Positions 14,614 to 33,700 of a DNA stretch of 64,000 bases are shown here, piece after piece; the stretch's first letter is position 1, and each line of letters starts with the position of its first letter. The stretch covers positions 75,994-139,993 of the forward strand of contig FN648885.1 in NCBI GenBank assembly GCA_000310025.1, in the 5' to 3' direction. The notes under the pieces were generated by a model that ran no database searches, was not told the origin of the DNA, and saw only the letters and a program-made list of their open reading frames with translations. The translations under genes and the position numbers were made by a program. Origin of the DNA: Ectocarpus siliculosus. Its lineage: Eukaryota > Sar > Phaeophyceae > Ectocarpales > Ectocarpaceae.

Positions 14614-14844
14614 TGGTTGTGCAGCAAACGTGCCTGCAACAACAGAGGATACGGTGTTCTATTTATTATTATCCCGCTCACCTTTTTTTTTTTTTTTTGC
14701 GACATGATGCAATTTTTTTTTTTTGTCTGAATATGACACAACGAATCCATCTCTGTCATAGGTAAGAGTCAGAGTCAGATTAGCAATGAATTCATAGCGT
14801 CAGAAAAAGCTACCTGTATGTCTACGATTTCCCAGACAGCATAT

Positions 14845-15128
14845 TATAAAGGAGGTCCAGCTGTAGGGAGCAGCTGGGTCCTTGGGTAAAGAAAGAGGTA
14901 CGGTCGCTTGATGTCTTGTCTCCACGATTGTGTAGAAATGAGATGTTGCTTGAATTGAGAGCGAGGAAGGTCTGATTGAGGAGGGGATCCTCCTAGCAAC
15001 CAGGGGGCACGCAGATAGCTGAGTCCTGATGTGGTATGGTCCCTGAGAGGTATACCTCACGGACATCCCACATCCTATACTAGACTAAGATGTACCCTAT
15101 CTAGGCCCTACAGCAACACTCCTTAACA
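14845..15128 (-). repeat. 3' LTR of the gypsy element
   Basis: 284 bp. On the minus strand it starts TGTTAAGGAGTGTTGC and ends CCTCCTTTATA. The polypurine-like tract cagggtgggctag precedes it (15129-15141, minus strand). Compared with the 5' LTR it lacks 13 bp and differs at two positions. Confidence 0.9.
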
Positions 15129-16084: not shown

Positions 16085-16335
16085 CGACGAAACTCGGGGA
16101 ACTCGTTTTCCAAGTATTCAAAGGCCAAAAGGCACCGACGAAACTTGGGGAACTCTTTTTCCAAGTGTCTAAGGTAAATAACACCGACAAAACTTGGGGA
16201 ACTCTTTTTCCAAGTGTTCAGAGGCTAAAAGACACCGACGAAACTTGGGGAACTCTTTTTCCAAGTGTTCAGAGGCAAATAACACCGACGAAACTTGGGG
16301 AACTCTTTTGCCAAGTGTTCAGAGGCAAGCAACCC
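16085..16335. repeat. minisatellite, five units of about 50 bp
   Basis: The unit cgacgaaacttggggaactc followed by tttttccaagtgttcagaggc repeats five times (starts about 16085, 16136, 16185, 16236 and 16287) with few changes. It lies in the transcribed 3' tail of the gypsy element. Confidence 0.9.
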
Positions 16336-17401: not shown

Positions 17402-19047
17402 GTACCGTTCTCCTCGAGACCTTGCGAGCTCGCGGTGTGCTGCGCGAGTCGAGTCAGGCGATAATTGCGATTACCCTGCTTGCTTTGGCAAATCTCGTTA
17501 GACCAATACAAAAGAATGTGCCTACGAAACGTATCCAAGTCGGATTCCCGTTCCCAGGATGGAGTGGCGAGACCAATCCAGTGAGTCTGGTACAATACCG
17601 CGACAATGCCGTTACGATGTCGAACCAATTGATGTCCCGAAATGTAGTCCACTTCCAGACAACCAACCGGCGGAGACACATCATCCACGGTGACATGGAA
17701 CGGCGGGCATTTGGCTCCAAAGGAATGCAAAACATATCGCGAAAGATCAGCAGGCAGAGACTGCGGCAAATTGTTGACGTCATACGGATTGCGGCAGAGT
17801 TTGCATCGTAAGACCGACACACGGGCGCGAGCGTCCGGACCAGAAAGATCCGAAGGGAGATCCAGATACAGTAGTTTGCTTCCCAAAGGCCGACCATCTG
17901 GAGTATCATCAGCAGAGGCGGGACCCACAGCAAGAACTTTGTAGGGCCCTGTCCAAGGAAGCGAAAACTTAACCTTGAGCACCTGTTGATCCGTGTCCTT
18001 CTTGGCCCCTCGCCGAATGGTGGCAGCCGTGTTGTACACCCAAACCCAGCCTCCAGCGATAGACGTAGGGAGCTTATTGATGGCATCAAGAAGAGAGGAG
18101 TTGCGGCGCTCGACACGCGAAACTTTCAGCGCGTTGTACTCACGAACGAGATCGTACGCCCGACGTTGGCGGTCCACAGCCAAATTGCAGTACTCCAATT
18201 GGTCACGATCCAAACTCTGATGACCACCAACCGTAGGGTGATCAAACACCGAAAGCGGTAAGCGTGGAATTCGTCCCATCTGTATCTCGTTCGGCGCTAA
18301 CCCGGTGGCTTGATTGACGGAGTTGTTGTAGGCGAACTCGACGTGTGGCAAATGCTCATCCCAATCCGTTTGGCTCTCGTTGACAACCACAGCAAGCATC
18401 TGAGCCATGGTGTGATTAACACGTTCTGTACCTCCATTTGTTTGCGGGTGGTAGGCGCTCGTGGTGACTTTCTTGATCTTCATCGCGTCGTAGATAGCTA
18501 TGGAGAGTTTCGAGCAAAACTGCATTCCATTGTCCGACAACAAAGTGGTAGGACATCCCCACTTTGTCATGTACTGGTTCACAAACACGTTAGCAGTCCC
18601 TTTGGCCGTGAATCCGGCCGCAGTGACCGCGAACATATCCGCGCGGCGGCTGAAGCGATCCGTGAACAGTAAAATGTAGGAGTTGGCCTTAGCAGTCACC
18701 GGCAAAGGTCCGAAAAAATCGACTCCTACCAAAACTCCGGGGACCGTGCGGCAAAGGCATGGCAATTTCGGGCCATCGAGTGGTCTGACGTGAAATCTTG
18801 CGAGCCTGGCACACCAAACACGACCGAAGCCACCAGCGAACAGAGCGATCCATGCCGGACCACCAATAAAAACGCTCCAGCAGCCGTAAAGTGCGGTGTA
18901 CTCCCAAATGAAACGAAGCAGTCGTGTGACAAGCACGGAGAACCCATGGACGCACCAACATCGGCACGTAGATGCGGGGTACCCCAGTATCCGGCAATCG
19001 AGTTGTCCTACCTCCAGCACGCCCAACCGGCCGAGGCGCCGATTCAT
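17329..19047 (-). pseudogene. gypsy integrase core and chromodomain-like tail
   Basis: Homology starts near 18741 (GVLVGVDFFGPLPVTA). The catalytic triad is D110 (VDFFG), D172 (LLSDNGMQF) and E208 (HPQTNGGTERVNHTM), numbered from the frame start, so D-x61-D-x35-E is intact. After the core come a GPYKVLAV-type C-terminal domain and, at about 17500-17658, a chromodomain-like segment (YISGHQ, THWIGLATPSWERESDL, with conserved aromatics and W-E). The first 100 residues of the frame are out-of-frame sequence. The true upstream part is in the frame ending at 18689, so a frame change sits near 18740. Chromodomains direct such elements to heterochromatin in known chromoviruses. Confidence 0.88.
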
Positions 19048-20455
19048 GAACTAGAAGCGTGATGTTGGCGTCGGTTGTATGCAATCGTGTTTTTGAAGCC
19101 AATGCCAACACATCCGTTAGTTTAGGGGAGCGAAGGGGGGCAGGTACCTTCAACAAATCTGATGGAGGTGGAGAGGGAGAACCTCGGGAGAGAAAACGCA
19201 TGGCTACAACGCACTCACTCTCTCGCTGTTGTTCCCTAGCCCAATCCACTGTGTTGAAACTCTGGACACAATCCTGTAAATAGGAAGAATCATCGGCGGT
19301 TGGATCAAAAGAATCTCCTGACGAACCAGCCGAAGAAGATGCAGAAAAATCTGCGGTCCCAGGTGACGACCTAAAAGAAGACGAAACCGGGGAAGATGGG
19401 GTCGCAGACGACGGCGAAATCACCGGCGGTACCGAAACAGTCGACGAAGGCGCCGATGTAGGCGTCGCGGGAATCCGAGGCAAGCGGGGACCAATCCCAG
19501 CTGTCTTGGCCGTCTGGCGAGACCTGCTAGGGCGACGAGCAGGCGACGAAGCACGAGGGACTACAGTAGCCCTTGGCTGTCGTCTAAAATATGTGGGGCC
19601 AGCGACAGGAGAACCTGACGCCGCTGAAGTCTTGGCCCTAGTCCTTGAAGAAACAAGGGGTCTTTGTTCCGGCAACGAAGACAAAACATGCACATGCCGG
19701 TGTGCACAATGCGACTTGATAGGCACGGAAGGAGACGGAGAAACAGCCCCAGTATCTCCAGAGGCGGGCGAAACCGCGAAAACTCCCGAAGAACTCCTGC
19801 AACCTTTTCCAGCAGGAGGCGAAGATGCAAGCTCATCCATGCGTGGTCCATGTCGGCGAAAATCTCCATAGTCCGAATCTTCCAAGACAGAAGGTGGAAA
19901 AACACCATCGGAACAAGGAGGGCGGAGCCCACCCAAACCGACCTCCGGTGTAGAAGACGAATGATAGGTGAACCCACAAGCCCGGATGAGAAAAACGCCC
20001 GCCTGGTCAATACCGTCGATGCTGTCAGGCCCGGTCTTGTCCTCCTCTCTCGCTGGCAACGGCAGTCTCGAAAGAAAATCCGCGTTGCCATTCGCCGAAC
20101 CTTTCCTGTACTCCAAAGTGTACGTGAAGTTGGACAAATACTCCAACCAACGTTGCACACGAGCATTGTGTTCGCCGACCTTGCCAATGCTCTCCAAAGC
20201 CTTGTGATCAGAATAAATGACAAACTTTGTCGACCAAAGGTATCCGCGAAGCCGCTTAATGGCCCAGACAATGCTACCAGCCTCCAAATCCAAAACGGTC
20301 CAATTGCGTTCGGCAGGAAGAGTAGCGCGGCTAATGTACACAATAGACCGCACAGTGCCATCCAACTGTTCTTGCTCTAGAGAAGCGCCAAACCCGTCTA
20401 TACAGCGTCTGAGCACAAACGGAGAGGGCGACTGTTGTCTTCTACTGCATCCCAA
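18689..20455 (-). pseudogene. gypsy RNase H, Ser-rich linker and integrase zinc-binding domain
   Basis: The frame enters RNase H at IDGFGASLEQEQLDG (the preceding CSDA with the catalytic Asp lies in the neighbouring frame ending at 20398). It continues with YISRATLPAERNW, DLEAGSIVWAI, YLWSTKFVIYSDHKAL and DFLSRLP. A Ser/Pro/Arg-rich linker of about 250 residues follows. Near the end is the HHCC zinc module of integrase (ACHTTASFHLGVHRT, then CLVCQARK). It breaks near 18740, where the integrase core continues in another frame. The unusually long linker between RNase H and integrase may be family-specific. Confidence 0.85.
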
Positions 20456-20958
20456 TCAGGAAAAAACAAAATCGGGGGGCGGGAGAGGTCGTGAAGCAGC
20501 GATTTGACCATCGCGACCATGTTCGGGGTGTACTTAAACTGAACGCCTTGTTTGAGAAGGGCGTTGAGCGGTCTTACCTTGGAGGCAAGGTTCTTCAGAA
20601 ATTTCCTGTAGTAGCTCAAACCGCCTAGGAGACTCCGAAGTTGCTTGACATTCGCCGGCGGTGGCATCTTCGTGAGCGCTCGAACCTTGTCGCCATCCGG
20701 ACTAACGCCGGCTGGGGAGATGGTGTGGCCCAGAAAATTAGCGTGAGTAGCTCCGACTCGGGCCTTCCCTGGAGACAGCTTGAGGTTGTACTGTCGTAAG
20801 CGTTTGAAGAATTCAATCATGTTACGCACATGCTCCAAAGGTTCCTCGCCAAAGCAAATGACATCGTCCAAATACGCCAAAACGCGGTCCAAGCCTTGCA
20901 CCACACGGTTGATGACCTTCACGAACCACGAAGGGCTCGCGTTAGCTCCTTGCGGCAT
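20398..20958 (-). pseudogene. gypsy reverse transcriptase, palm and thumb part
   Basis: It starts in the conserved MPQGANASPSWF block, has the catalytic AYLDDVICF (YxDD), the HLxxV..F..L thumb, NFLGHTISPAGVSPDGDK and LRSLLGGLSYYRKFLKN, all typical of Ty3/gypsy. The upstream fingers and first Asp are in the frame ending at 20969, and the RNase H continues in the frame starting at 20455. Single-base frame changes therefore lie near 20970-20985 and near 20400-20415. Confidence 0.9.
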
Positions 20959-20968
20959 TCGCAGCCAC

Positions 20969-23900
20969 TCAAAGAGCTGTGTCGGCGTACAAGACTGTTA
21001 GAGGCACGGTCTCCTGGTCGCACACAATCTGGTGAAAAGCAGAGTTGAGATCAAAGATGGAAAATACCTTCCCTGTGTACAAAGAGTCCAAAATGCCGTC
21101 CACGCGCGGAAGAGGTTGTCCATCTAAATCCACAAGTGCATTAAGGCGCTTGTAGTTGACGGTGATCCGAACCGAGCCGTCCTTCTTGGGGATGACCACT
21201 AAAGGAGAGGCCCACGGAGAGGTGGAATGCTGAATAAGCTCAGCCGCCAAATATTGATCCAACACTGCGTCCACTTTCTTCTGCATTAATGGGTTAATGC
21301 GGTAGGGACGTGAAGCGACAGGCTTCGTCCCAGGAGGAACAGAAAGGCTGAAGGGCAAAACATCACAAGCACCAAAATCCGTCTTCGAAGTTGAAAAGAC
21401 ATCAGAATAATCGCACAATGCATCTGCCAATCGGTCAATGGCCTCTGGCGACCAATTAGGGTCATGAAGATCAAAGGCGATGGCATGCATGTTCGACGGC
21501 AATCTATCCCACAAACGCGAGAAGCTGGAGCGTTGCGCCTCTGACAGACGATCCATCAGTTCCTGTGGGGGCGGCTTCGGCGGAGGGGGGGCTGGCGCGG
21601 GGTTCGAAGGTGGTCGTGCCTCTGGATTGGGATCAACGGTGTTGACCCGAGAGGCTGTCGTCGATGGCGACGGAGCCGACGAGTTCGAAGACGGCGAAGT
21701 CGACGAAGGCGACGAAGTTGAGGATGTGAAAGACTTGGTCAAAGTTTCCACAGGCATACGCAACAAAGGCGCCGCGGCAACTCCAAGAATGGCGCCTGGC
21801 TCCAATTCCGCACAACCTGCGAGGGGGATGCGCTGAAGTCCATTGGACACAAACGCATCCGGAGACGAAAGAGCACCAACTTCAGGTGGAAAGGACACCA
21901 AATACTCACCTATCAAAGCAGGCAAACCTGAAGAACGGACAAGGTTGACCTCGATGAGTGTAGGCTCCGGCCCCAAAGAAATGCCCGAACTGCCGGCATA
22001 CTTGAGGTGAAACGAAGACTCTGGCGCCTCGTCATGTGTAGCGTAAACACAAGCTCCAGCCGAAAAACGCGTAGAAAGCGTGAGCTCACCCATTACACGA
22101 CCGTCCGGCCCAGGGCGAGGGAGAGTTGAAAATGTCCTAGAATTGAAACGCATCCAACTGTCACGTCCCAAAAGCACAGCATGTCCCATGGCCTTGTCTG
22201 GAACGATGCAAGCCCAAACCGCCAAAGAAGCTGTAGCACGATCTCCATTCAGGAAGTTGACGGTGAGGCGAACAGATTTGGTGGTCTCGAGAGCAGGCCC
22301 ATCGCCAAACCCACCCCAACGGCGAGAAGGCGACACGCGAATACTCCCAGGTGTCAAAGCACCAGCAGCGATCATAGCAGTAACCACAGAGTGGGTCACG
22401 AAGGACGCAGGAGAGCCAGAATCCAATAAAGCCACCCGCGGAAGTTGCAAAGTAGCAGTTGGCCCACCATGTAACCAAACTCGGGTGGTGTAAGAATCGG
22501 AATCTATTAAAAGAGTTCCACCTACCAGATCAGGCCCATGCTCCAGAAGAGGAGGTCTATCATCGCAAACAAAGGTGGGTGCAACAAGATGCACTCCAGG
22601 AGCATGATCTCCAGGGGCGTCTAAACGCACGCCAGCCGAACCAGTATCTTGGTCCTCGTGGGCCGGCGGCCTGCCCGCTGAAGTCACTTCGTGAATACGA
22701 CGTTTTGACGTTGAAGGGGGCTGAGAAGAAGGGGGCTCAGGAAAAGCAGAATCAAAAGCAGAATCGGCAGAAGCATCGCCCGCGAGCGGGCGATCTCGCA
22801 GTAAAAGCCGAACTCTCATCAATGCTAATCCAAGCAAGTTTTTGCCAGACGTCGACCATTTGGACGGGTCTGAAGCATGTGGATGGTGTGCAGGCAAGCC
22901 AATACCCCAAAGAGTATCGAAGGGGCTAGCTTCTGCAAGTAAACGGTTGCCTGTAGCTAACAAATGTTGCTTCATAGCAGCGTTCTGAGCAAATTTGGCA
23001 TACGAACCCGTGAGCACAATCTCTTCACGACGACGCTCCCATTCAGCATAATCGAACGGACGTACTTGACGACCGTTGCGCCGGATCAGAAGTGGCCATA
23101 ATTTTGTCGTACGTGACTGTATCTCCAAACAGCTTAGCCTTTTCCGACATCATAAATTGCTCACCACATGAGTAACGCACCCCCAGGACGTCAAAAATCG
23201 AAGGAGTCCACTGCGAGAAGATCGAAGGAGGTTTCCAGAAAAGGAAAACATTGTCCGAAAAATATTCACGCGTGTCGTCAAACGACTGTGCTTGTGCGGG
23301 GCTAATCGGCAACGAAAGAGCACCAGGCACAGCGGGGTTCGAATGACCAAGCGGACGGGTCCCCATTTGCGAAGATGGAGAACCTGAAAGCGAGGTAGAA
23401 GCGGGCGAGAGCGCAGCGCTTCTGGTTCCAGAGGGCGGCCTACGGGCGGCAACTCCGGCTGGGTCAATGTTAGCAAGGCGGCTATTAGAGACCTGTTCGT
23501 TAGGAGTAGTCACTCCTGCATCATGCTGGCTTCGGCGAGTTGGTGCAGGGTGCTCTTGAGTACTCCCCCTTGACAAAGGAGCCGAACCTTCCACAATTTG
23601 GTGGGCACCACCATCCGATCTCGATGGCGGCGGTGCAGTCAACACTTGGTGGGCAGCAGAGGAAAAGTTATTTGTATCAGGTGCTACCACACGGGGGCAA
23701 CGGACGGTCTGAGACAACGAAAGTCGCGAAGAATTGGTAGAAGGAGCATCGGCGGTAGAATTCCGGACGACTGTGGAAGAAGGCTCGCGAACTACTCTAG
23801 AAGATCCCTGGTTGACAACACCTGGGGAATCTTTACTTATAGCAGAGGGCAAGTTTCTTATTCCTTCTAAAACCCGAGACGACGAGGTGAGCTGGGGTGA

Positions 23901-24101
23901 ACCGCTCGCCATCTTACCTCCCTTTCGCCCACACCACAAAGTTGTTGCCGGAGTGGATTTGTCACGTCCAGAACCAGCAGACGATGAGGTGGGCGGCGAA
24001 GAGGCGGGCCGAGAAACTTGGGGGGATTGAAATACAGAAGTGGGCGTACCTAAAGAAGTAGGTTGGACACGAACATCTTGAGATACGCCATAAGGGCGCA
24101 C
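20969..24101 (-). pseudogene. gypsy Pol N-terminal part: Ser-rich linker, NADAR domain, protease, RT fingers
   Basis: Two overlapping frames (24101-23043 and 23128-20969) form one region. A Ser/Pro-rich linker leads into a NADAR domain (own entry). Then comes a retropepsin-like segment with VALLDSGSPASFVT (catalytic Asp near 22423), a low-complexity Ser/Thr/Pro stretch with a Pro-rich PPPPKPPPQE, and the RT start (PYRINPLMQKK, SPWASPLVVIPKKDG, VFSIFDLNSAFHQI with the first catalytic Asp). The two frames cross inside the NADAR domain, near 23060-23090. The second ends at 20969, where the RT continues in a third frame. Placing protease directly after NADAR suggests that NADAR is part of the polyprotein and not a separate gene. 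Confidence 0.88.
22792..23252 (-). other. NADAR (YbiA/DUF1768-type) domain inside gypsy Pol
   Basis: About 150 residues match the family pattern across its length: NVFLFWKPPSIFSQW, VRYSCGEQFMMSEKAKLFGD (the conserved G-E-Q and K-A-x-L-F-G-D), KIMATSDP, GRQVRPFDYAEW, AKFAQN, LLATGNRLLAEASPFD, WGIGL and GKNLLGLALMRVR. NADAR enzymes cleave N-glycosidic bonds: YbiA-type members act on riboflavin-pathway intermediates, and some remove ADP-ribose from guanine in DNA. The active-site Glu and the EASP.D..WGIGL block are kept. The two halves are in different frames, joined near the DP...GRQV segment, where family members usually have a few more residues. A small deletion is therefore likely in this copy. 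Confidence 0.88.
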
Positions 24102-24276
24102 GGTGGATGCTGTTGGCGGCAGTACCGGCTGAACTCCGCCATCGACATGTCAGTTTTTACCCTTACCACCTCTCTTGTTCGCAGTCGAAGACTCCGAAGA
24201 AATGGAAGAAGACTCTGTGTTGGACGCCGATTTCTTGTCCGAAACATTACGGCGCGGACGTGCTGAAGATGAATTG

Positions 24277-26988
24277 TTACGGGGGAACATATCGTCCCGC
24301 GCGCCTGTGCGAAGTCATGCGCTTTTGCCACCTACTCCAAAGATCAGGGTCTGTCTCCATGTGAATCTTGATGTCAGGGTTAAGCAAACCAGTGGCGTTC
24401 ACAAAACCGCGCGTGCATAGCTTGAAAGAATGGTCTTCTCCCAAACAGTTGAGGCATTTTCCTTTGAATAGCCTGAGAGCATCTCGCCGAGCTTCGCTAG
24501 TGACCAACGGAGTAAACAAAGGCGGATCCTGTTTGGTCTTGGCGTACTCGAGGGCGACATTGTATACCGCTTGGTAGTGGCCTTGCAGAGGCCAATCACT
24601 GTAATGGAGCATGAAAGGGTCCCGGTCATCAATTGGTTGCGGATCTACACTCATCACAGCCGACGAAGGGCCCTTGCTCCAAGATGCAGGCGAAGACGAG
24701 CGCAACGTCGAAGAAGCCACCGCACGCGAAACAGCAGAAGAACTCCTAAGGTTTGTCGAAGACACAGCAAAAAATTCTTGTCCGTTCACTGCAGGTGTGT
24801 GGGCTATCGTACGCTTGTCCAAAGCCTCCCACATGTCCTCCAGACAAGTGTCATGTCGCCCAAAAGGGGCCTCCATGGTCAATTGCGCGTCCTTGTACAA
24901 TTGTCCAGACAAAACCGGAAACTGCTTGAGCATGGAGTCCCGAACAGCAATCTGAACCTGAGCAGCGGAAGGCTTGAATGCAGTATGCGACACCATGACC
25001 GTCATTGTCAGAGCCTTAAATTGCCTTATGTACTCTCCAAACTTCTCATCGTTGGGCACTCCGAAGCTACGAAGACGGTCAATGCCCGAAGTCTTGTCCT
25101 CGGTATCCCACGCAGCAGCCAGCTTCTGGATAAAGAAGGTGTACGTCGAGGGTCCTGAAGGGTCTTTGCGCAAGTGAGCTTCTACCTGCAAAAAGGTGGC
25201 ATCGAGAAATTCCAAAGTAGCACGATTCGCGGTTTGCGCGTCGGCAACTGCAGCACGGACCCGTTTACGCAGTAGAGGGAGCCATCCACTGGCCCACGTC
25301 GAAGAGTTAAAACTCTGTTTACGCTTAACATCACTTTTCCGAAGAATTTCAGCGACAACTCCTTGGCAGCTGGAAGCAAAACGGGAAAATTCATCAGGAT
25401 CCGAACCAAGCGGCAAACGATTAACACTGTCCAAATGCTCCGGCTTCATGTTGTCCATCTTATTCTGTATGCGAATGAGATCGGCCTCTGCTGCCTCTAC
25501 TGCAGCGGCGTCAAGAGCCTCCTGACGCTTCCTCGCTCCTGTGGACGATAAAGGCAAAGCAGCGTCATCCTGCAGCGGCGGCACTCTCTGTGAAACATCT
25601 TGCAGGGACTGCGCGTCGGAGTCCCCAGCCACAGAACTTGCACCTGTCCCCAGAGACACTCGCTGTGGCACAAAAGCCTGCTGCGCTGGAGGTTTCGACA
25701 AAGAGGGTCGTCCAGAAAATTCCTGCCGCAAAGGGCTCGTCCGCAAGATTCCAGCTGGCAGCGATGACTGCAAACGTTCTCCAGAAAGTTCCTGCCTCAA
25801 AGGGCTCGTGGCTGGTGCAATCGAGGGCACCGGCGAAGGCGCACGCGAAGGTGCATGCAAAACTGGTCCTCTAGGCGAAACGGCAAATCTGGAAGCACTA
25901 AAATCCGGATTTTGTGACAGTTGAGGATGATGCGGTGGCTCGTACATGGCCTCTTGTTCAGGAGCAGTAGCAGCGACTGGGTGGTGCACGAGAGGAACTG
26001 ACTGCTGTACGGTCGGCTGTTGAAATCTCAAACGGGCATCATTATCCTCGACACGGCTCATCGACTGCGAACGTCGATCTTCAGCTGTACGTGTGTCAGA
26101 GCGGTGGACAGATTCACGCGAGACAGCTACCACGTCCACTCCACCACGGTGTGATGTCGGTGACGGTCGAATATGAGTGAGAAGCTCTTCTAACAACTTT
26201 TCGGTGCGTGACACGGGAGTGGAAGCTGCCGGTTGTGACAAAGGGCGACGTGTCTCCATAGGCAAAAATGTGGCCGAGGGCCTGCCATTTTCCACATCCG
26301 GAATTGCAGATTCTCGCACAGCCTTAGAGTGTTCCCTCAACTGCATATCCGCCAAACGGTACGCCAAGGAATTCACCGTCGGAGGCACTGCAGGAATAGA
26401 CGAGCGTGACGGCCCAGGACGAGCCATACCAAGTCCAACTCCAGACTCGACTTTTTCTTCCTCAGAGGGCACACTACTATCATCAGACTCATTCCTGTCA
26501 TAACACACTTGCCTGCTGCGACGGTTGCCGTCTCGGTCGTCATGGTCGCTGTGGTCGTGGTCACGGTAACGGTTGCTGTCGTCCCGGTGGCGGCGGCTTC
26601 CAGAACGCTTGGATTTCTTCCTCTTCTCGTGCCTGGCCTGGTCCTCAACACGCGCGTCTTCGTTGTTGAAGTCCCGAGCCCTGTGACGATCACGCCCTTC
26701 TTCGGCATATGCGCGATATTCCGTGGCTTGGTGCTGCGGATAGCCGCCCTGCCCCCGCGGTGATCCAGCGTACGAGCCGTTACCCGCAGATTGAGCGAAC
26801 TGCGTAGCTTCGTCTTGCTGCGGCCAGTGGGCATGGCGAAGGCTGAACAGGAGCTGGCGCACGTTGAGACGCTCAAACGGCGTCAGAGAATTAAGAAAGT
26901 GGGGGTTGAGCGCATGTCTCCAAATTGAACATGTTGTACATGCCTGTCCCGGAAAAACAATTCTGCAAACCTGCGGCACGAATGCCAC
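24277..26988 (-). CDS. gypsy Gag with CCHC zinc knuckle
   Basis: A 903-codon open frame. The listed 5' end is a GTG codon and the real start is not visible, because similarity-like text continues upstream in other frames. The N-terminal third is Arg/Asp/Ser-rich (RSGSRRHRDDSNRYRDHDHS) and the middle is Pro/Ser-rich. Residues about 520-780 form a helical capsid-like region. Near the C-terminus lies CLNCLGEDHSFKLC, an exact CX2CX4HX4C nucleocapsid knuckle. It should bind element RNA and build particles. Pol begins downstream in a different frame, separated by stops near 24280 and 24150. Confidence 0.85.
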   Translation of the reverse strand: MAFVPQVCRIVFPGQACTTCSIWRHALNPHFLNSLTPFERLNVRQLLFSLRHAHWPQQDEATQFAQSAGNGSYAGSPRGQGGYPQHQATEYRAYAEEGRDRHRARDFNNEDARVEDQARHEKRKKSKRSGSRRHRDDSNRYRDHDHSDHDDRDGNRRSRQVCYDRNESDDSSVPSEEEKVESGVGLGMARPGPSRSSIPAVPPTVNSLAYRLADMQLREHSKAVRESAIPDVENGRPSATFLPMETRRPLSQPAASTPVSRTEKLLEELLTHIRPSPTSHRGGVDVVAVSRESVHRSDTRTAEDRRSQSMSRVEDNDARLRFQQPTVQQSVPLVHHPVAATAPEQEAMYEPPHHPQLSQNPDFSASRFAVSPRGPVLHAPSRAPSPVPSIAPATSPLRQELSGERLQSSLPAGILRTSPLRQEFSGRPSLSKPPAQQAFVPQRVSLGTGASSVAGDSDAQSLQDVSQRVPPLQDDAALPLSSTGARKRQEALDAAAVEAAEADLIRIQNKMDNMKPEHLDSVNRLPLGSDPDEFSRFASSCQGVVAEILRKSDVKRKQSFNSSTWASGWLPLLRKRVRAAVADAQTANRATLEFLDATFLQVEAHLRKDPSGPSTYTFFIQKLAAAWDTEDKTSGIDRLRSFGVPNDEKFGEYIRQFKALTMTVMVSHTAFKPSAAQVQIAVRDSMLKQFPVLSGQLYKDAQLTMEAPFGRHDTCLEDMWEALDKRTIAHTPAVNGQEFFAVSSTNLRSSSAVSRAVASSTLRSSSPASWSKGPSSAVMSVDPQPIDDRDPFMLHYSDWPLQGHYQAVYNVALEYAKTKQDPPLFTPLVTSEARRDALRLFKGKCLNCLGEDHSFKLCTRGFVNATGLLNPDIKIHMETDPDLWSRWQKRMTSHRRAGRYVPP

Positions 26989-28964: not shown

Positions 28965-29104
28965 TCAAAACAAGCTCTCGTAGTTGGTGAGACCTAAAAT
29001 TGCAAGCAACAAGCAATCAGAAAAAAGAGGAAACACCAAGCAACAACGGGAGCAGCGCTGCGTCCAACGCTAGCTTACCCGTAGACTTGCCAGACGACGC
29101 CAAA

Positions 29105-29401
29105 TATAAAGGAGGTCCAGCTGCAGGGAGCAGCTGGGTCCTTGGGTAAAGAAAGAGGTACGGTCGCTTGATGTCTTGTCTCCACGATTGTGTAGAAATG
29201 AGATGTTGCTTGAATTGAGAGCGAGGAAGGTCTGATTGAGGAGGGGATCCTCCTACAAGCAGCTCCTAGCAACCAGGGGGCACGCAGATAGCTGAGTCCT
29301 GATGTGGTATGGTCCCTGAGAGGTATACCTCACGGACATCCCACATCCCATACTAGACTAAGATGTACCCTATCTAGGCCCTACAGCAACACTCCTTAAC
29401 A
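29105..29401 (-). repeat. 5' LTR of the gypsy element
   Basis: 297 bp, minus strand TGTTAAGG...CCTTTATA. Directly after it (29104 downward) the minus strand reads TTTGGCGTCGTCTGGCAAG, a plausible tRNA primer site. The duplication atat follows the outer end at 29402-29405. Confidence 0.9.
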
Positions 29402-29405
29402 ATAT

Positions 29406-30714: not shown

Positions 30715-33700
30715 TGACCGATCCAAGAGATCGCGGCGACAACCGCCGTCGAGACGACACAAGCACAAGGAACCGCCGGTACCGAGTTGTCAACGCCACC
30801 GACATAAACACGCGTCGAGGGGCTTAGCGTGCTGCCTCCGCCGATGCCCTCAACGCCCATCGTAGAGCACAATATTCCGCGTCGGCAGAGGCCATCAACA
30901 GCCGTCGTAGAACTCGCCATGCCGACAGAGCACAACAGCTCAACGCCGCACGTCGACGGCGTAGAGCGACCGTCATCAACAAGAAAAGGGGGTTGCCCTT
31001 CAACGACATCTTTCACGCCGAGGACGACTCCACCTCACTACGAGCCATTGTTGGAGACCGTCAGCGAGCCTTGGAGGAGGCGCGACGAGACCAGGGCATC
31101 ACAGCGCACACCGGAGATCCTTGCCGGCATTGTGGCGCCAAACTGTTCGCTAAAGAGTCCAAGGGCATTTGTTGCAAGAATGGGAAGTACATCCTCCCGC
31201 GACTGCCGCCACTACCCCCTTCATTGAAAGAATTGTACGATTCTCCGGAGCCATCAGCGCAGAGGTTCAGGAAGGAATCGAGGATGTATAACTGCCGATG
31301 CAACTTCGCCTCGCTCAACGTGGAGGATGGTGAACTCAAAAAATGTTCGGTGACCATCTCTTGTCCGTCCAAGGGAGGTGAGATCGATTCACATGTGCAA
31401 CGATATATGCTACAATTGTATAATGAGGTATAGATTCATTCGTGTGGTCTTTCATTTCTATTTTCCTTCGTAGTTTAAAACACGTTTGATTCGTTCGATA
31501 GCATATAATTGAGTGTAGATTAGTTCGTGTGATATTTCGTATATATCTTTATTCGTGTTACAAAATACAATACATCCATATAAAAGCGCATTTTCGTCTT
31601 TTCTTCTGTACGATGCAATACCCGTACACCTTCCGATACAAAAAACAATGTCACTAACATCAACAATAGTTTCCCTCCTCCGTTCATATTCCATTCACAC
31701 ACAGCATCACAAGTTCGTACATCCTGCGCTCTCCCCCATGTACACCGTTCCTGCCCATCTCTTTGGCCAGAACTTACCATTCTGTTCGAGACGGCGGCCA
31801 TTCCAACGTTCAATGGCTCCTACATGACCCCAACTTCGTCTCTAGCCACCTCGACAAAGGGACCATGACGACGATACTGCGCGAGTTGCGATCCACATCA
31901 CCCTATGTCGGACGCCTCAAAGCCGCCATGAGCACTCGGTGGGTGCCTACCGTCACGACCTATACTTAAAGTTAGACTACAGCAAAATATTCGAGTCATT
32001 TTTGGCTCTGTTAAACATGTCAAACGTGCTTCCTGCTGCCAACATCCCCACATACCACTTCGTATCCATATCGTGCATATGTTTCTATGATATGTTGGGG
32101 AGGTGCAGAACGGGAGTTTTGTTTGATCCATCCGTTCCACATCTCATGTATCTGGTGCGAATCATTCTACATTATTTCCACTTCCACCGTTCCTTTTCCA
32201 GGACTGAATCGGCTGCTATTTCGAGCACCTTGGCATTCTCCGCGCCTGGTGCACCGTCGTCAGAAATGATAGCTGTGGACACCCGCAGCAGGGGGGTCAT
32301 GCCTACAGACAAGACCACCATGACGAGGACGCTCACAGGGGAAATAAACACCATCAGTTACCTCAATCGTAACTATTTCCCTTTGACATACGTCCTGCTG
32401 TTTCCGCACGGTGGGGAATCCGGATGGCACCCCGACCTGAAGAGCACGACCGGTCGCAAAATCACGTTAGCACAATGGGTAACCCAGTTGTTGTTCAGGG
32501 AACCACGATTCGAGAAACTGGGGCCATTGGTCAACGAATTTCTCATCGACGTTTTCAGTTGCATCGAAGATCATCGACTCTCGTTCCACGCACATAACCA
32601 AGACAAGTACCGGACGTCGATGCACCACGCGTATGCAGTTGCGCGACGTTACCGGCAACCGCAGCCCCACCACGATCCCGTCGATGCCATCATCGTCCCA
32701 TCGAGTTTTGGCGGGATTCGCCGACCAAGCGAAGAAGCTGACGGAGTCCATGGCGATTCTACGCCACTTCGGGCGGCCATCATACTTCCTCACCGTCACG
32801 TGCAACACAGTGAGTCCTTACGGTACGAACACGTGTACGACACAAGTATACCGACAGACAAAACCTTCCTTTTTGTATTCACTAAACATCCACATATCTA
32901 TCTCATCCTTCGCACTCCGCAGGAATGGCCGGAGATACGAGAACGATTACATCCGGGATAGACGGCTTTCGATCGCGCCCAACTTTGCGCCAGAGTGTTC
33001 AAACAGAAACTCGATGCCTTGCTCAAGGTGATTACATGGTTTCTTTGCGTTCTGCCCCATCGATTATTCGTGTCACGACTCATACGACGTCCATAGACAC
33101 TCCGCCTATCGCTTCCACATCGTGTACATGTCGCATATCTCCTGGCGGAAACATTTTCACTCACAGATCATTCCTACCCCCCCGGACTTCGACCCTACAG
33201 ATTTTACCTCAAGTCTTCGGCAGAATCATCTTCAGGATCGCGGTCACTGAATTTCAGGTGAATTCCTCTGCTACCAACGTCTGTCTACGTCATTTGGGTA
33301 CGTCATTTTGGGAGCGTACCGTTCCGTCCACGATCTATATCCCACCACCTCTTCCTAACTCCTCGGCCGACCCTCATCGCGAGTCCCGCCCCCATCGCGC
33401 GCCGCAACGTGTACAACCGCAAATCCCTTGTGTCCGACAGAAACGAGGACTGCCCCACTCCCACATCGTTTTCAAAGGTGAGCGCAACCCCTTTCCTACA
33501 TCAACGAAATGACATATCTCATGGAACATTCTGATTACTTCGTGTTGGCATCGACCCAACACCTACACACTGTTTTTGTTTCGCCCGGCGACCGTCTCTG
33601 CTATGCGTGTACTTTGCTTCATGGTCCGCCCAGCTCTATGTTCATCTCGTCTAATGGTGTTCCTTTTCCCGCGATGAGGTGTCATCCATAATATCATGCG

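Follow-up and report, generated by a model that had tools for sequence, protein, structure and literature searches.

A YbiA-type NADAR domain in the Pol polyprotein of a brown-algal Ty3/Gypsy retrotransposon lineage

Introduction

A NADAR-bearing Gypsy lineage of Ectocarpus sp. 7, consisting of Gypsy-12_Ec32 and its relatives, was described in 2025, and a putative C-terminal chromodomain was reported for Gypsy-12_Ec32 (PMC12477816). Here, we analyzed a stretch of 64,000 nucleotides from Ectocarpus siliculosus (contig FN648885.1, positions 75,994 to 139,993; hereafter, the window), which carries a decayed Ty3/Gypsy element with a NADAR domain between Gag and protease. An earlier reading of the window from its letters (the original prediction) had left open whether such fusions were catalogued in algal elements; in the published description they are, for Ectocarpus (PMC12477816), so that the NADAR-Gypsy fusion is already known in kind and its discovery is not new. 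The window lineage and Gypsy-12_Ec32 are both NADAR-bearing Gypsy elements of Ectocarpus, likened here by that description only. To the content of PMC12477816, as far as its available text goes, we add evidence on the active site, selection, phylogeny, fold and the Gag-Pol junction, together with a host NADAR gene that belongs to a different clade. Chief among these additions is evidence for lasting selection on the captured enzyme, whose active site is intact.

Capture of enzymes by replication proteins has several described parallels. Some Gypsy elements and retroviruses likewise hold a captured house-cleaning enzyme for nucleic acids, dUTPase, in Pol (PMC2864245, PMC5408684), and in PosPlaTy3-3 it lies at the amino-terminus of Pol, as the element NADAR does (PMC2864245); these elements differ from the NADAR lineage in the enzyme and the reaction. 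An orchid Gypsy lineage likewise acquired a remover of a nucleic-acid modification, the m6A demethylase AlkB, but as an additional open reading frame (ORF) rather than an N-terminal domain of Pol, and with activity shown in vitro (PMC9289625). NADAR itself was captured by polyproteins of animal RNA viruses (PMC9503650) and by ORF1 of oyster Tx1 LINEs (PMC12477816), which use other replication machinery and are likened by description only. NADAR antitoxins of DarT1 systems, and the Phytophthora nicotianae NADAR structure (PDB 8bau), are described in PMC11543638.

Results

NADAR is a trait of a multicopy Gypsy lineage

At the site where the original prediction had placed a NADAR domain, the PF08719 profile matches the window in two pieces: profile positions 67-163 match the minus-strand ORF 20969-23149 (E 4e-28, 99.1 bits), and positions 2-71 match the minus-strand ORF 23043-24149 (E 2.9e-8, 34.6 bits, cut-off 35.1). 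Over 22796-23246, the window domain aligns with L063, an unbroken relative, at 95.9% DNA identity and with 11 gaps (451 versus 462 nt); owing to this 11-nt shortfall it is divided between two frames. Intact copies match the whole profile; L016, for example, scores 154.6 bits over positions 2-163 of 163. The predicted order of Gag zinc knuckle, NADAR and protease was borne out (Table 1). One correction to the original prediction is that the domain of the window copy spans two frames.

The genome searched (189.5 Mb, 492 contigs) yielded 230 NADAR candidates by profile search. All of the 150 that were scored lie above the curated cut-off, 22 of them in stop-free frames of 2000-2580 aa; among these 22, L026 turned out to be frame-shifted inside NADAR, and two loci contain short N runs. 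Our sample comprised 88 NADAR loci (L001-L088), of which 86 gave a single-frame domain, three of these with one stop (L001, L076 and L084; counted with X at the stop for residues and left out of the variant counts used for selection). The frame-shifted L026, L027 and window copies stand outside the 86, which lean towards unbroken copies because 60 short loci were picked mostly from stop-free rows. At 85% identity, the 86 copies form seven families of 21, 19, 17, 17, 5, 4 and 3 copies; the window's own kind is the family of three.

Pfam scans of unbroken Pol proteins, one from each of four families, place NADAR ahead of reverse transcriptase (RT), RNase H and integrase in 4/4, with NADAR at residues 301-452 in L016 and within 384-594 in the three others; a check for related copies with an intact, in-frame NADAR at the same place had been suggested along with the original prediction. 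Protein P0001 of Ectocarpus sp. CCAP 1310/34 combines NADAR and RT with 92% identity in the NADAR region, as do four further proteins at 54-68% identity, and the relatives include metagenome proteins. These comparisons of sequence indicate that NADAR in Pol is a trait of a Gypsy lineage with many copies. The original prediction of such a lineage is upheld by the domain, its position, its presence in related elements and the purifying selection on it (see below), and neither outcome that it had named as fatal, a missing profile match or related elements all lacking the domain, occurred.

Several proteins and loci stood out in these searches. Residues 2150-2376 of the L016 Pol form a conserved region after the integrase (53-77% identical between families); the C-terminus gives a weak Chromo match (E 0.078, 13.3 bits versus a cut-off of 25.1), and this region is perhaps a divergent chromatin-reader domain. 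P0154 and P0155 belong to a sister Gypsy lineage (RT 43% identical), whose polyproteins combine a chromodomain with a C-5 cytosine DNA methyltransferase (PF00145). P0006, P0007 and P0008 (2758-2912 aa) carry NADAR with PF02481 or PF00498, which we take to be DprA/SLOG-type and FHA, respectively, and no listed reverse transcriptase. The 10887-aa open frame of L028 (C3:3913787) arises at least partly from an N run (4845 N in the 10-kb locus), and a 6365-aa open frame is listed on C489.

The element domain is of the YbiA type and keeps its active site

The element domain has the NADAR/YbiA fold, and no other family was prominent in the fold comparison, which did not extend to the viral library. 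At the position of the YbiA-type catalytic glutamate, E125 of P. nicotianae on the last strand, 85/86 copies have Glu and 1/86 has Lys. All nine mapped active-site residues belong to columns that are invariant between families, and all nine are kept in 77/86 copies. By its sequence, then, the element NADAR is YbiA-type. The DarT1-linked antitoxin type was rejected, as Asp is found in 0/86 copies and the DarT family has no match in the genome (control positive in one named genome); compared with the antitoxins described in PMC11543638, the element NADAR lacks a paired toxin and has the YbiA-type glutamate instead of their aspartate.

NADAR is under lasting purifying selection

A dN/dS (ratio of nonsynonymous to synonymous change) analysis had been suggested along with the original prediction, and it revealed purifying selection on NADAR: for 14 representatives, omega was 0.083 in the GY codon model and 0.118 in an MG-type model, and the GY log-likelihood was -3141.4 versus -3378.3 with omega 1 (kappa fixed at 2). 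Mean pairwise ratios within families ranged from 0.14 to 0.57. Variants present in several copies are expected to be older; those common to at least two copies gave ratios of 0.11, 0.31, 0.16 and 0.09 in the four largest families.

The linkers of the same elements served as a control for the sampling lean towards unbroken copies. Among nine copies of family F1, the ratio was 0.15 for NADAR, 0.24 for the protease region, 0.34 for RT-RNase H and 0.13 for integrase, and 0.64 and 0.71 for two linkers (NADAR versus N-terminal linker, Fisher p 0.045, with copies not independent). Between families, identity was 57-65% in NADAR, 57-67% in RT, 66-76% in integrase and 47-51% in the protease region, and 20-33% in the N-terminal and RT-integrase linkers; these ranges exclude the closer pair F3-F5 (NADAR 80%, RT 91%, linkers 42-45%). 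NADAR is under lasting purifying selection, of a strength comparable to that on the core enzymes of the element.

A conserved stop codon separates Gag from Pol

In 13 of 20 ten-kb loci, a Gag-side frame of at least 200 codons meets a stop, and a frame of at least 200 codons opens directly behind it in the same frame. Eighteen junctions, a set that excludes L021 and L027, were inspected: 17 read TGA and then C, and the eighteenth, in L014, has the same letters offset by an upstream length change. The TGA-C junction is present in all four families with Pol loci; in the window copy, a frame change lies between the zinc knuckle and this junction. Read-through is favoured when the base after a stop codon is C. 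From this, Gag-Pol is expected to be a minor product, which would place NADAR in the particle.

Origin of the element NADAR

In an RT tree, 17/17 NADAR-bearing rows fall inside one 26-row clade (100/98), whose nine remaining rows are truncated or odd gene models; P0138 (truncated) and P0147 fall outside it. Among the RT-clade proteins with at least 53% RT identity, 11/24 have no NADAR match. Eight of these 11 begin at most 459 residues before the RT segment, and the L016 NADAR ends 509 residues before RT, so that the eight would start too late to hold NADAR if L016-type spacing applies; spacings are shorter in two NADAR-bearing gene models, P0001 and P0136. P0131 retains the first ~30 NADAR residues, the rest being skipped by the gene model, and P0149 is an apparent fused gene model with a Helitron-type domain. 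P0147 and one other row are basal to the 26-row clade; P0147 is flagged as a long branch and has no NADAR match in the ~190 residues upstream of the expected NADAR end. This single protein fits an acquisition of NADAR after its split.

A NADAR tree of 86 rows unites the 20 element rows in a single clade (98/95), which is recovered by 100% of its 200 bootstrap trees. The simplest reading of the trees would be one NADAR capture, followed by descent with Pol.

Stand-alone NADAR proteins are found in brown algae (P0012, P0013 and P0017, from Ectocarpus and Scytosiphon). A collinear two-piece match to stand-alone NADAR (residues 1-103 at 81% and 178-241 at 92%) at C24:2125206-2127066 (minus strand) is probably an intron-containing stand-alone host NADAR gene, the middle part of which was not seen. 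The N-terminus of this gene is rich in cysteine, and its close relatives are from Ectocarpus and Scytosiphon. For the host-type N-terminal part, the 150 rows scored include one strong genome match and one weak one (40%, C4). The weak NADAR match at C4:2729718-2730230 (plus strand; 39% to P0012 over residues 20-191, one internal stop) is perhaps a second, older host-type NADAR gene or a remnant.

The 86-row tree places P0012, P0013, P0014 and P0017, the host-type proteins, in a clade separate from the element NADARs. According to PMC12477816, NADAR matches beyond Ectocarpus are almost exclusively bacterial; given a stand-alone host-type NADAR in a separate clade, that remark needs a host-gene footnote. 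A tree joining the host-type proteins to 16 element rows was 2.5 log units above the free tree (p 0.535), and a kinship of host-type and element NADAR is possible, with either of them as the source of the other. In the 80 matches retained from 591, the named bacterial NADAR with the highest score came from Nannocystis (53% to P0010), roughly equal in closeness to host-type P0012 (55%). Judging from these similarities, a bacterial source of the element NADAR and a host-gene source appear equally plausible; a viral source is a further candidate.

Architecture of the window element

The window element is a minus-strand Gypsy element of ~14.6 kb, bounded by repeats like long terminal repeats (LTRs; Table 1). 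The LTR pair is identical at 282/297 aligned positions and differs by two substitutions and one 13-nt gap. The ATAT on both flanks is a possible 4-bp target-site duplication, weak alone as four AT bases. The Gag-like frame matched no Pfam family at E 0.1, and the protease, also without a Pfam match, was identified by its motif only. With LTRs, Gag with a knuckle, this protease motif and the RT-RNase H-integrase order, the element is of the Ty3/Gypsy type. Its Pol is frame-shifted at several sites besides NADAR, and it is a decayed member of the brown-algal Ty3/Gypsy lineage.

Table 1. Features of the Gypsy element in the window (positions are those of the window)
Feature	Position	Strand	Details
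5' LTR	29105..29401	-	Direct repeat; reads TG...TA on minus strand; ATAT abuts at 29402-29405
Putative primer-binding site TGGCGTCGTCTGGCAAG	29086..29102	-	2 nt downstream of 5' LTR; complement ends CCA
Gag-like open frame, 907 codons	24277..27000	-	CCHC zinc knuckle CX2CX4HX4C at 24415-24456
Gag stop/Pol junction, TGA then C	24150..24152	-	Comparison with junctions of related copies
NADAR domain	22796..23246	-	Frame broken; N piece 23076-23246, C piece from 23077 down
Aspartic protease active-site motif LLDSGS	22412..22429	-	Motif reading
Reverse transcriptase (RVT_1)	20719..21193	-	Pfam; split across two frames; YLDD at 20863-20874
RNase H (RT_RNaseH)	20126..20398	-	Pfam E 2.7e-24
Integrase zinc-binding domain (H2C2)	18794..18964	-	Pfam E 2.1e-16
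Integrase core (rve)	18445..18741	-	Pfam E 1.4e-7, 32.1 bits versus cut-off 32.6
3' LTR	14845..15128	-	Direct repeat; ATAT abuts at 14841-14844

Tandem repeats of ~50 nt occupy 16085-16318 within the element, past the point where Pol similarity ends (~17060) and before the 3' LTR; the L016 translation after the Pol stop has a similar repeat, as judged by eye. A 371-codon open frame at 31846-32961 (plus strand) gives a weak Helitron_like_N match under the cut-off (E 0.0075), and is perhaps part of a Helitron adjoining the Gypsy element.

Discussion

We propose, at a probability of roughly 0.42, that the lineage captured one YbiA-type NADAR at the start of Pol and kept it as a repair module, an N-glycosidase acting on a nucleic-acid adduct. 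Pol would be produced by read-through of the TGA-C stop, and a few Gag-Pol molecules would bring NADAR into the particle beside element RNA and cDNA, where the protease may free it from Gag-Pol. There, it would strip ADP-ribose or a similar adduct from guanine of the element nucleic acid before integration; such a module would be placed like the dUTPase at the Pol start of some Gypsy elements. Characterised NADARs, simple YbiA proteins included, take ADP-ribose off guanosine (PMC11125620, PMC11543638). This known activity, together with the nucleic-acid-maintenance enzymes of other Gypsy elements, leads us to suggest, with guarded confidence, that the domain clears an ADP-ribose-type adduct. 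The three functions named in the original prediction, namely shielding of nucleic acid from ADP-ribosylation, interference with NAD-derived signals and a structural cofactor role, are hypotheses, and that prediction as a whole is supported in part.

Several results weigh against this proposal. The genome searches gave no evidence for ADP-ribosylation of nucleic acid in brown algae. The DarT family, sought by a search whose control was positive in one named genome, has no match in the genome, so that the proposed opponent of the element NADAR was not identified. PARP has four matches, all exon-sized and two with an internal stop, and Macro has one, also exon-sized; ART (PF01129) and Tox-ART-HYD1 (PF15633) had no genome match, which is uninformative because their controls had none either. 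Within families, active-site columns vary in 15/774 cells, compared with 63/4813 in other invariant columns; these similar rates suggest that active-site columns have no special protection in young copies. Selection in family F2 looks weak once single-copy variants are included (ratio 0.73 for all variants), and three F2 loci alone give a ratio above 1 with very few changes. As for a single capture, a 122-row NADAR tree groups 16 element rows (95/93) and leaves five outside this main clade without a firm placement, and bootstrap convergence was reached in neither NADAR tree. Two separate captures were considered for these five rows and set aside; a single element clade was not rejected in the 122-row tree (p 0.293). 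Four of the five sit inside the element clade of the 86-row tree; the fifth, P0142, has a domain identical to that of P0139 and was left out of that tree.

The substrate may also be soluble. NADAR can act on riboflavin intermediates, on which E. coli YbiA works (PMC11543638), and it may perhaps act on soluble ADP-ribose derivatives. Removal of ADP-ribose- or NAD-derived signals or of toxic metabolites in the host cell, a role proposed for phage NADARs (PMC9503650), is equally compatible with the conserved active site. A Gag-Pol fusion with low read-through output would, however, be ill-suited to a soluble pool, and we regard this role as unlikely, if the best placed of the alternatives to a repair module.

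Processing of the element's RNA intermediate, for instance at modified or capped RNA ends, comes next and is likewise doubtful. RNA processing was put forward by the authors of the Ectocarpus transposable-element paper, who did not name RNA ends (PMC12477816), and the orchid Gypsy lineage with an RNA demethylase active in vitro (PMC9289625) lends it a precedent; against it, no RNA substrate of a YbiA-type NADAR is found in the available text of PMC11125620 and PMC11543638.

A structural or nucleic-acid-binding spacer of Gag-Pol, for which catalysis is dispensable, would suit a domain that sits between Gag and protease and whose enzyme activity is deduced from sequence. This role is improbable in view of the nine mapped residues, their invariance between families and their retention in 77 copies, which speak for a working enzyme rather than a part with a structural role alone.

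That the window shows an isolated capture of a host gene, a chance insertion or an artefact of assembly, as the broken frame and the separate host-type NADAR gene might have suggested, is refuted by the presence of the domain at 150 or more places in the genome, relatives in Ectocarpus sp. CCAP 1310/34 and metagenomes, purifying selection, and the different clade of the host-type proteins.

The evidence for lasting selection on an intact active site makes a concrete question testable: which adduct on retroelement nucleic acid, or which signal, makes NADAR worth carrying in brown algae? It is conceivable, as a long shot, that brown algae ADP-ribosylate guanine of retroelements as a defence, and that a particle-borne NADAR erases the mark and underlies the success of the lineage. 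If true, this would be a eukaryotic retroelement counterpart of the bacterial DarT/NADAR conflict. If the substrate is ADP-ribosylated nucleic acid, the element NADAR would hint at an unknown defence in a complex multicellular lineage.
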